NCBI GenBank assembly: GCA_947631035.1
Contig: CANRJW010000007.1
Location: 1 to 50,923 of the forward strand
Direction: 5' to 3'
Length of the DNA stretch: 50,923 nucleotides
Source: an uncultured Bacilli bacterium
GTDB taxonomy: Bacteria; Bacillota_I; Bacilli_A; RF39; UBA660
The first letter of the stretch is position 1. Every line of letters begins with the position of its first letter. Position numbers and translations under genes: made by a program. Below the pieces are notes generated by a model that did not search any database, was not told where the DNA came from, and was given only the letters and a program-made list of their open reading frames with translations. Positions 2,518 through 23,128 of this stretch are shown here, in pieces.

Positions 2518-2700
2518 TTACTTTTTTTCTAATTTTACTTTATAACCACAAGTATTTAGGATTTTTAAGTACATCTCAAGTGTAATTTTATTTATACCTA
2601 CTTCATATCTTGAGTATTGTTGTTGGGTTACTCCTATTTTCTTAGCTAATTCTTTTTGAGATAGGCCACTAGACTTTCTTATATCTTTTAGACTTCTCAT
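2518..2700 (-). CDS. XRE-family transcriptional regulator (60 aa)
   Basis: A single Cro/CI-type helix-turn-helix fills the protein: IRKSSGLSQKELAKKIGVTQ is a textbook HTH_3, followed by QQYSRYEVG and a short helix. It would bind DNA as a dimer. Its ATG overlaps the TGA of the surface-protein gene (ATGA), so the two are translationally coupled and the regulator probably controls that operon. The inverted repeat TTGTC-AAAA-GACAA over the -35 of the surface-gene promoter (4721-4734) is a plausible operator. A second small XRE gene (16316-16507) stands beside another surface gene of the same type. Confidence 0.85.
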   Translation of the reverse strand: MRSLKDIRKSSGLSQKELAKKIGVTQQQYSRYEVGINKITLEMYLKILNTCGYKVKLEKK

Positions 2701-4673
2701 GAGGCACTATTGGTTGGCGCAAGGGCAATACGGAAACTGCGACCGGTATCTTTAGCACCTTCGTTACGACGGAAATCGAAGACACCGGAACCCGTACCAC
2801 TGTAGTGAGCACCACCACGATTGAACCAAGATTCACTAGAAGATACGAACCAAGCTTCGTCATTATGCCAAGAACTAATTTGTCGATTTTGGGTATTATA
2901 TTTTCGACTTTGAAAAGGTCCCATCTCTCCGGTCGCATCTCCTAAAATTCTTTTATTATATTCTAAAGAATTTATATTATTGTATTTGTCATAATATTTT
3001 TCTTCAATTTTTGATAAAGTTAAACCGCTTTTATCACTACTATTTGGTGAAATACTAGTCATAACTCCCATAACATATTCCCATGTTCCTCCACTCATAT
3101 CAAAAATTCCCGTATTATTTTTTGTTGTACTTGCTTCAGTACTTGAAGGATACACATTAGATTTTTCATTGGCAGTTCTCGGAGTTGTAGTAGTGTAATC
3201 TTTATAAGCATCATATCCAGTAGTTGGTGCAATTTTTGCTGAAACTCCAGTTACATAATTTTGACTATTATTGATTCGTATTTCTTCACATGTTGTTTCA
3301 CCATCTGTATTAGTACATCTTCCATAGATACTTTGCGTTAAATAAGCTACTACTCCCCATTCCGTATTCTTTAACATATGGCTTTGTAATTCTGTTTTAT
3401 ATTGTTTTGATGTATTAAATGCATTTCCTACTGTTATATTTCTCCAACTATAGACATTTGGCTTTATTATTACTTTTGTAGGTTCATTTGTATCTTTTTC
3501 TGCTCCAGTTTTTTTCCAACTATTAGTGTCTTTTAAAGAATTATCTTCATTTTGGTTATAGCCCGTTTCAAATTTTCCTACCCATATTCCTTCGCTTTCA
3601 GGAAAAGCTAGAAATGCTGGATGCGTCATCCATTTTCCTACTTCACAAGTTCCGGTTCCTCCTGATTCTGTTGGGGTGGTACATTCTGTTTCACTATCCG
3701 TTGTATTCTCTAAACCAAACCTAATCTCTATTGCTTTTTCTTTTCCTTCTTTTATTGTTGTTAATCCTGTATAGTCGGTTCCCATATCAAAGATTTGATA
3801 TTGATACTTTGGTATCCATACAAAATAACTTTCGATATCTTCTTCATTTATTGTTGCTCCTGTTTCATATGTGTCTTCTTTTCCATTTGCAAGGATTACT
3901 GCATTCGCCCATTTCTTTTTCCCATATTCATACCATTTTGCTGTTGGATCTGCTTTGGTGACATCCCCATTTTCTTCATTTATTTGTACTGCAACCATTC
4001 CTTTGCCTAATACTGGGTCTGCTCCTTGTAATAAGGGTTCACTATATATCGCTATTTCATTTTGTACTGCTTCTATTACCACTTTACTTTTGAATATTTT
4101 ATTTTGACTTTCATTTCCTGCATTCTCATCTATCCATATTCTTACTTCATGACTTTTTTCTTCATAAGGTTTTAATGTACCTGTTCCTATTTTATATGTT
4201 TCTTGGTCTTTGCCATCCATTTGTTGTGTTAATGTTAACTTATTATTACTATCTAGTTTTACTGCTATATCTTGAGATGGTAATTTATTTTCTTCTACAT
4301 TCTCTACTTCTAGTTCTACTTGATAATCCACTCCTACTCCACAAGCATTTCTTATTTTAAATTGATAGGCATCTGTATTGCTTCCTGTTTCTTCTTTCAT
4401 AGGATAGGCATGATACAAATTTAGAGCTTCTGTTACTTCTTCCATCTCTATTTTGATACATTCTGTTCCTATAATATTTTCATTCTTTTCTTTTGTTTCA
4501 TATTTTATATAAGCATAACTAAAAGACACTACCATTATAAGTGTTACTATACTTATTAAACTTACTATTATTTTCTTGAGTCGTCTTGGTTCCTTCTTCT
4601 TATTATTATCTAATATACCCCCCCCCAGACGACGATTTTCACTGGTTGGGAGGTTCTTTTTGAAATTATTCAT
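2697..4673 (-). CDS. Phase-variable (ON) surface protein with C-terminal SUMF1/C-type-lectin-like fold
   Basis: 658 residues from the ATG at 4673, which has GGAGGAGAAAG before it. A cytoplasmic head (1-33) contains LGGG encoded by a run of nine Gs; a membrane segment covers about 35-55; the middle holds a C(x)nC domain and a WYEYGKKKWANAVIL segment found in the paralogue at 14220-16172. The last 330 residues look like the formylglycine-generating/SUMF1 fold: WMTHPAFLAF, WVGKFETGY, NTEWGVVAYL, GIFDMSGGTWEYVMG, and at the end SWFNRGG..GVFDFRRN..SFRIALAP. That end matches the variable region of diversity-generating-retroelement targets and uses many C-ending codons (TTC, TAC, AAC, ACC) unlike the rest of the gene. 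Surface ligand binding is likely; enzymatic sulfatase activation is not supported. Confidence 0.75.
   Translation of the reverse strand: MNNFKKNLPTSENRRLGGGILDNNKKKEPRRLKKIIVSLISIVTLIMVVSFSYAYIKYETKEKNENIIGTECIKIEMEEVTEALNLYHAYPMKEETGSNTDAYQFKIRNACGVGVDYQVELEVENVEENKLPSQDIAVKLDSNNKLTLTQQMDGKDQETYKIGTGTLKPYEEKSHEVRIWIDENAGNESQNKIFKSKVVIEAVQNEIAIYSEPLLQGADPVLGKGMVAVQINEENGDVTKADPTAKWYEYGKKKWANAVILANGKEDTYETGATINEEDIESYFVWIPKYQYQIFDMGTDYTGLTTIKEGKEKAIEIRFGLENTTDSETECTTPTESGGTGTCEVGKWMTHPAFLAFPESEGIWVGKFETGYNQNEDNSLKDTNSWKKTGAEKDTNEPTKVIIKPNVYSWRNITVGNAFNTSKQYKTELQSHMLKNTEWGVVAYLTQSIYGRCTNTDGETTCEEIRINNSQNYVTGVSAKIAPTTGYDAYKDYTTTTPRTANEKSNVYPSSTEASTTKNNTGIFDMSGGTWEYVMGVMTSISPNSSDKSGLTLSKIEEKYYDKYNNINSLEYNKRILGDATGEMGPFQSRKYNTQNRQISSWHNDEAWFVSSSESWFNRGGAHYSGTGSGVFDFRRNEGAKDTGRSFRIALAPTNSAS
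4618..4626 (-). repeat. G9 tract, in-frame contingency repeat
   Basis: Nine consecutive Gs on the coding strand, codons 16-19 of the surface gene. With nine the reading frame is open through all 658 codons; any change not a multiple of three would truncate the protein within a few codons. Long G runs are otherwise absent from this AT-rich window apart from the tract at 23015-23024. Confidence 0.9.
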
Positions 4674-4701: not shown

Positions 4702-4730
4702 ATTCTACACTCTTTTTTGTCTTTTGACAA
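4702..4730 (-). promoter_or_regulatory. Promoter of phase-variable surface gene, with inverted repeat on -35
   Basis: TTGTCA (complement of 4725-4730), 17 bases, TAGAAT (complement of 4702-4707). The -35 lies in TTGTC-AAAA-GACAA, a possible XRE operator. Confidence 0.75.
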
Positions 4731-21660: not shown

Positions 21661-23071
21661 TTATTCTCCTATATAAGTGATTCTTGCAAAACCATCTCCA
21701 CTATTTCCTTCCATTCTTTCTTCTGACCCATCATGAGTCGGCATGTCAATTTTATCACCTTTTTGAGTAGTCCAGTTATAGCCTGATCCATCAATTATCA
21801 CTGTTTCTGTAAAAATTTTCCTTGAATAATGCTCTGATGTGTCTAAATGTGTTATTTTACCATCTGTAGAATCTTCTGTTATGGCTTTGCAACCATCATG
21901 TCCTGAGATATAAGAAGAACCTCCGCCAGCGCCCATATCTCCGCAACAGATACCGGAGCCACCTGAACCACCATAGTAACCTCCACCGCCTCCGGCTCCG
22001 CCACCTACAATTGGTGCAGCACTATCACCTGGATTATTGCTATTTGCTCCCCCAATTCCACCGATTCCAAAAGAACCTGCAGTCGAACCGGTTGATGCAC
22101 ACTTCCATCTCCAGGCCACCGAACCACCAGAAGTTTGGCTTCCACCTCTTCCTTGATAATTGGCTAAAGTCCCGCAACCATCATATCCATTTAGACCTCC
22201 GCCAGAGCCACCACAATAACCGTAACCGGTTCCGCCGCCTCCAGCTCCGCCACCAGCAACCATAATACGAGATTTTAAACTTTCAAATTCATTCCATGCT
22301 CCATTTGTCAATCTTACATCTGTGGCTCCGCCTCCAGTTGAGCCACTTTTCCCTAATTTATTTATAGTGGAATTACCACCACCATTATATCCTCCTAAAG
22401 CATTTCCGTCCGATGGACTTCCTTCTCCTCCTACATAAATATATAAAGTTGTCCCACTTGTAAGTTCTATCTCTCCTTTTGTATATCCTCCTAATGTATG
22501 ACCATTCGAATATTTTCCTCCAGCAGCTCCCCATAATTCTATTTGATACTTTCCGTCTGCTGGGGCAATGAATTCTTGCTCATCACCTGTATAATTATAT
22601 TCTATTATATCACCACTATTGATTATAAAATCAACTGTACAAGATGTTGGTACTTTGGTAATATGTTTTACATTCAAATCCCATTCTTCTACATTCCATA
22701 CCCCTTCTGCTTCATTATCACAATTGACATCTATTTTCGAGTAAGTTCCCTTCGGAGGAATTGTACTCGCCTTTTCCCCATTTACTGTAAGGGCAATAAA
22801 GTTAACATCGCCTTTTCCTTTTCGAAAATCCGGTACAGTTCCTTTTAGTACATCAAAAGAAGCTTTTTCTTCATACATAGCAAAACTTCGGTATAAACTT
22901 ATACCTCCAATTATCATTACGATTGCTATGATACTTCCAATTATAATTTGTTTTTGTTTTCTATTTTTATTAAACCGTTTTAAGTCCTCTGGTTTCTTAT
23001 TATCTAAATAATAACCCCCCCCCCAGACGACTATTTCGCTCGGTTGGGAGGTTCTTTTTGAAATTATTCAT
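21661..23071 (-). CDS. Phase-variable glycine-rich (ALK/LTK-type) surface protein, OFF in this sequence
   Basis: From the ATG at 23071 (GGAGGAGAAAG before it) the frame reads MNNFKKNLPTERNSRLGGG and then, because the G-tract has 10 Gs, stops after 23 codons. Removing one G gives an uninterrupted 469-residue protein: cytoplasmic head, membrane segment about 41-58, a domain of about 100 residues with two cysteines, then the glycine-rich domain (EYNYTGDEQEFIAPADGKYQ, IELWGAAGG, many GGG/GGSGG blocks, GAGGGSSYISG, ending GDGFARITYIGE) as in the ALK/LTK glycine-rich family. The body is intact without other lesions, so this is a switched-off gene rather than a pseudogene, unless the extra G is a sequencing error. 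An internal ATG at 22917 would give 418 residues but lacks a leader. Confidence 0.75.
23015..23024 (-). repeat. G10 tract, out-of-frame contingency repeat
   Basis: Ten consecutive Gs on the coding strand at codons 16-19. Ten shifts the frame to a stop four codons later; nine would open it. The orthologous position in the gene at 2697-4673 has nine. Confidence 0.9.
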
Positions 23072-23099
23072 TTCTCTTTCTCCTCCATATCTTAATTTA

Positions 23100-23128
23100 A
23101 TTCTACACTCTTTTTCTAATTTTGACAA
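23100..23128 (-). promoter_or_regulatory. Promoter of glycine-rich surface gene
   Basis: TTGTCA (complement of 23123-23128), 17 bases, TAGAAT (complement of 23100-23105), the same as copy 1. Confidence 0.75.

Follow-up and report, generated by a model that had tools for sequence, protein, structure and literature searches.

A gene on the minus strand at positions 21661–23071 of the window—the whole stretch of uncultured Bacilli DNA analyzed here, 50,923 nucleotides in length—raises the question of why a reading frame with intact start signals should close at a run of ten guanines, and whether it is a switch caught in one phase, a dead gene, or an error of assembly. A sigma-70-like promoter (23100–23128), recognizable in the sequence and conserved among copies of the leader, consists of TTGTCA (23128–23123), a 17-base spacer, and TAGAAT (23105–23100). 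It is followed at 23069–23086 by a ribosome site, GGAGGA (23086–23081), and an ATG (23071–23069); 15 codons and the bases CT then separate the ATG from the start of a G10 tract (23024–23015). With ten Gs the product is a peptide of 23 codons, MNNFKKNLPTERNSRLGGGLLFR, after which there are two stops. The frame past the tract has 450 stop-free codons ending at the TAA at 21661, and a tract length n of 0 mod 3 joins it to the start as a frame of 1410 nt, 469 codons. The first-pass annotation had described this start, tract and early stop, and a frame otherwise intact on removal of one G, and both descriptions hold on the minus strand. A possible alternative start, from which G10 would be the ON length, was rejected: the in-phase upstream frame meets a TGA overlapping the ATG, and there is no ATG, GTG or TTG before the tract. 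Runs of eight or more Gs far exceed chance in the window, with five overlapping G8 matches (in two tracts) versus 0.10 expected from dinucleotide shuffles.

When ON, the gene would encode the leader peptide, a hydrophobic segment common to the family and predicted to be a signal anchor in the membrane (IIIGSIIAIVMIIGGISLYR, 22888–22947, minus strand), and an ALK/LTK-type glycine-rich domain (PF12810, 21670–22557, minus strand). The profile match to this domain is strong (E = 5.7e-43; 148.1 bits versus a curated cut-off of 24.5), the ALK/LTK label being a domain name only, with no kinase implied. A near-copy of the leader, overlooked in the first-pass annotation, lies elsewhere in the window on the same strand, with its own promoter at 4702–4730 (TTGTCA at 4730–4725, a 17-base spacer, and TAGAAT at 4707–4702) and a G9 tract at 4618–4626. 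The gene that it begins (2697–4673) is in frame and ON, and encodes 658 aa with a C-terminus of the FRIALAP (FGE/C-type-lectin-like) type. With the G9 gene in frame and the G10 gene out of frame, the window thus has one ON and one OFF member. Neither of the window proteins, nor a 27-member profile, had a match among the sequences of solved structures; predictions by AlphaFold2 for the ON window protein and for a relative of the diversity-generating retroelement (DGR) type were too poor to use, with mean pLDDT values of 34 and 32.

Both genes belong to a family that extends throughout the window's own genome (G000; 1,430,974 bases, 82 contigs, 92.7% complete). There are 62 tracts of seven or more Gs in this genome and at least 48 copies of the leader module: 40 with G10, four with G9, three with G11, and one with G8. 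Four of the 48 loci run off a contig end, so that their state was judged from tract length alone, and the presence of leaders at contig ends points to a family of more than 48. The module comprises a sigma-70-like promoter, a ribosome site, an ATG, a leader of the form MNNFKKNLPT..RLGGG, and the G tract, after which come a membrane anchor, itself conserved, and outer domains of diverse kinds. Across an alignment of 38 leaders, identity is 0.89–0.93 in the ~80 columns that directly precede the tract versus about 0.5–0.6 upstream, and the conserved block holds the TTGACA-like and TAGAAT boxes, GGAGGA, and the ATG. Common to the open reading frames downstream of the tract are a basic stretch and a hydrophobic anchor, NNRKPEDLKRFNKNKKQK-IIIGSIIAIV-IIGGISLYRSFAMYEEK or one of two variants, beyond which they diverge. 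Among 42 of these frames, five match the ALK/LTK glycine-rich domain, one matches DUF285/PARCEL repeats, and one, weakly, FGE-sulfatase; gene names beyond such Pfam matches are descriptive. A C-terminus of the WF-RGG...GVFAF...FRIVLA type is common to about 26 members. A few members are shortened, such as that at L094:1454, which is open for only 27 codons.

All 40 leader genes with a scorable frame in G000 require n = 0 mod 3, and four of the 48 are therefore ON; about 44 of the at least 48, the window gene included, are OFF in the assembled genome. The OFF copies have frames of up to 691 codons, and dN/dS has a median of 0.32 over 51 OFF–OFF pairs (pairs with more than 60% identity) and is 0.21 for the window gene versus its closest paralogue. 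Judged by these ratios OFF copies are under purifying selection, and the long frames and low dN/dS indicate that they must have been expressed often enough for selection to act on them. The codon GGG accounts for 183 of the 2,071 glycine codons in the family genes; the tracts are nonetheless pure G.

The same arrangement recurs in related genomes. G10 tracts are present in all 22 genomes of the genus, in nearly all of them together with G9 tracts and usually far above G9 in number, and leader-type genes are found in many of its species, with an ATG-to-tract distance of mostly 41–53 nt and a common CTCCCAACC-type core. G9 members in frame occur in G000, G004, G010 and others; G004 has ALK/LTK members at G9 (in frame), G8 and G10, so that the comparison with relatives proposed in the first-pass annotation yields an in-frame gene of the ALK/LTK type. 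Named matches to the leader pattern are uncultured Bacilli or Tenericutes metagenome-assembled genomes, several of them carrying the label Lapin (rabbit) or wildmice; unrelated genomes of high GC content match the pattern too, by chance. The leader core, a short pattern, has 13 matches in viral contigs. In a class-wide sample most genomes have no G10 tract or one to two, and a sister genus has ten; the sister-genus tracts inspected are promoter-spacer-like (TTGAC-Gn-TA[GT]AAT) and not in a translational leader. One ALK/LTK member in G007 (G007:C6:11729–12541, L394) has the family anchor and neither leader nor G tract, and is therefore possibly expressed constitutively.

Not all tracts lie in the shared leader. 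In-frame G10 tracts outside it are found in G000 at C6 (L098:1515–1524), at C10 and C21 (L102, L112), and at C28 (L118:12422, minus strand); the genes at these tracts encode an acyltransferase-3, DUF285/leucine-rich surface proteins that have another short leader (MIKSxI), and an InlB-type repeat protein of 1190 codons, whose frame reads ON. An acyltransferase leader in G017 stands at G9, in frame (L190). Other G tracts fall between TTGAC-type and TATAAT/TAGAAT-type boxes with spacers near 17–19 (L118:1139, minus strand; L129:1564; L098:9383), and the same type is seen without a translational leader in the sister genus (L424, L428, L434, L440); phase variation through promoter spacing is probable at these sites from their layout. 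Finally, G10 or G11 tracts lie just 5′ of genes starting MAGNxSxQFLRG (L092, at 6202, and L133, at 945, both minus strand), one of which has a match to DUF6273 and the other a weak match to the phage major tropism determinant N-terminal domain; these genes possibly encode phase-variable phage-type binding proteins.

We propose that slipped-strand phase variation of a large, mostly OFF surface repertoire explains the locus, and put the probability of this reading at roughly 0.86. Slipped-strand mispairing during replication would add or remove Gs just past the start of the reading frame; a multiple of three (G9) would give a membrane-anchored surface protein, and G8, G10 or G11 a peptide of 20-odd residues. 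With G10 the usual length, each locus would normally be OFF and occasionally ON, and cells would display changing, small subsets of the repertoire. The anatomy, copy number, length spectrum, frame logic, genus-wide conservation, and selection on OFF copies are the observed features behind this reading. As at contingency loci, the repeat is placed where it can switch the gene (G10 after codon 15), both phases occur among copies and relatives, and the OFF gene is intact and selected. The predicted anchor and the domain types suggest surface exposure of the products, whose variation may help the cell to evade host antibody, phage or competitors. The first-pass annotation's claim of a phase-variable surface gene caught OFF is thus supported by the 48 modules with lengths of 8–11, the in-frame G9 paralogues, the purifying selection on OFF copies, and the relative at G9; its picture of a lone locus gives way to one of a genome-wide family for which G10, and OFF, is the normal state.

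The predominance of G10 itself calls for an account. The ON fraction of 4/48 is below one third (P = 8.5e-5, a value that treats copies as independent, which they are not), and simple neutral three-phase slippage is therefore insufficient; a length bias toward G10, selection for OFF, or both are needed. G10 exceeds G9 by 63 to 9 in G003, 37 to 1 in G012, and 50 to 4 in G000. The uniformity of G10 (40 of 48 leaders) and the purifying selection on OFF copies would also fit a scheme in which G10 is the working state, with RNA polymerase slippage or a programmed ribosomal frameshift giving a fixed in-frame fraction without any switching of DNA. We consider this improbable: leaders in G007 need n = 0, 1 or 2 mod 3 and are mostly G10 all the same, and a one-directional programmed shift cannot serve all three phases; G10 also predominates among the promoter-spacer tracts, where no reading frame is involved; and members with G8, G9 and G11 exist. 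Because G007 leaders of every phase and the promoter-spacer tracts share this preference, the G10 excess is better read as a length bias of the slippage process than as a frame-specific programmed shift. Selection for OFF may add to this bias, and two-directional slippage in transcription could add leak. Loss of mismatch repair was rejected as a general cause: all 22 genomes of the genus have MutL, and 20 of them have MutS. In G000 MutL is present and MutS was not found in the 92.7% complete assembly; the gene may lie in sequence absent from the assembly, or it may truly have been lost, which would make the tracts more mutable.

A more remote explanation is that OFF members are silent donors, their outer domains being swapped into a few ON loci by recombination between the nearly identical leaders, with the G tract of minor importance. 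Leader and anchor sub-types on either side of the tract are combined at random, as past exchange would predict (mutual information 0.36 versus a shuffled mean of 0.39, a weak test with 48 copies and a dozen sub-types), and the data are consistent with exchange around the tract in the past. In contrast to promoterless silent cassettes, however, each copy comes with a promoter, a ribosome site and an ATG, and the tracts have stayed pure, with lengths close to G10; exchange could accompany slippage rather than replace it. Least probable is that the G10 is a sequencing or assembly error for a true G9, or that the gene is dead. The genome is fragmented and incomplete, and truncated members such as that at L094:1454 do exist, but many genomes of the genus, each assembled separately, show a matching length spectrum, OFF frames are mostly long and have dN/dS values near 0.32, and neutral decay would not keep a promoter, ribosome site, ATG and pure tract in dozens of copies. 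These comparisons make a chance assembly error, or a solitary pseudogene, very unlikely.

Slipped-strand phase variation may be coupled in relatives to a second source of diversity. Their leader genes include a family ending in GVRPRFLI, in which hypervariable codons keep a pyrimidine in the third base. A cassette in G012 contains an RVT_1 reverse transcriptase (L380:1386–2543), an adenine-rich template (L380:1164–1247), a MutS domain-I protein, and a variable gene; relative to the template, 14 of 23 adenines and 4 of 61 other bases are changed in this adjacent gene, and 18 of 23 adenines and 7 of 61 other bases in a leader-G10 gene elsewhere in the genome. As the changes in the latter fall mainly at template adenines, at least one poly-G leader gene is very probably a DGR target in G012. 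At 11 of 12 reverse-transcriptase loci no template match to the variable regions examined was present. Short proteins (120–190 aa) matching MutS domain I only are found in G009, G010, G011, G012, G014, G017, G020 and G021, and those of G010, G011, G012, G014, G017 and G021 have a reverse transcriptase no more than about 1 kb away. No RVT_1 match was obtained in the G000 assembly (92.7% complete), and its excess of NNY at hypervariable C-terminal codons (0.67 versus 0.43 elsewhere) is weak and only suggestive; the DGR claim is therefore limited to relatives. DGR target proteins have a C-type lectin fold (PMC5006420, PMC6328139). The genes here resemble such targets in their hypervariable C-termini with NNY codons and, in G012, in the template, reverse transcriptase and adenine-specific substitutions; they differ in that no reverse transcriptase was detected in G000 and that the window gene has an ALK/LTK glycine-rich domain and no such variable region. 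A tentative picture, to which we give slightly less than even odds, is one of two layers, in which a poly-G-switched paralogous surface family, recombined around the tract, would in some species be rewritten by a DGR at the binding site, each cell showing a small, randomly drawn set of hypervariable binding proteins.

The best-known poly-G contingency loci are those of Gram-negative pathogens such as Campylobacter, Helicobacter and Neisseria. Campylobacter jejuni NCTC11168 has 29 G/C tracts of seven or more, and colony assays in C. jejuni gave 257 G8, 214 G9, 431 G10 and 77 G11, with G10 the commonest (PMC4965091). The present loci are similar in their in-frame tracts of 8–11 G, ON/OFF control by frame, surface-related genes, and commonest length of G10. 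In contrast to the mostly single, unrelated genes of C. jejuni, one paralogous family of at least 48 members with a single promoter-leader-tract module is found here in an uncultured gut bacterium of the Bacilli, whose 62 tracts in 1.43 Mb are about twice the C. jejuni number, 48 of them belonging to the one surface family. Poly-G phase variation of the promoter spacer is the Neisseria porA type; G000 and its relatives also have TTGAC-Gn-TATAAT promoters, whereas the window gene is switched by reading frame and not promoter spacing. The vlp, vsa and vlhA genes of Mycoplasma are families of variable surface proteins, and resemble this one in that a small, low-GC genome holds many paralogues whose 5′ module is conserved and whose outer parts vary; here, unlike in those families, every leader has an in-frame poly-G and a membrane anchor replaces the lipoprotein signal. 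Literature on phase variation together with RF39, metagenome-assembled genomes or Tenericutes yielded no report of this system, and no pairing of poly-G phase variation with a DGR was apparent from titles and the openings of abstracts among the papers listed for both terms.

Through the DGR link in a relative, a single gene would come under two classical diversity mechanisms. Since tract length reveals the state of each locus, ordinary metagenomic reads could be used to score combinatorial expression across the whole family, and a commensal of this kind would be a natural case for random surface display in the face of host antibody, phage and competitors.
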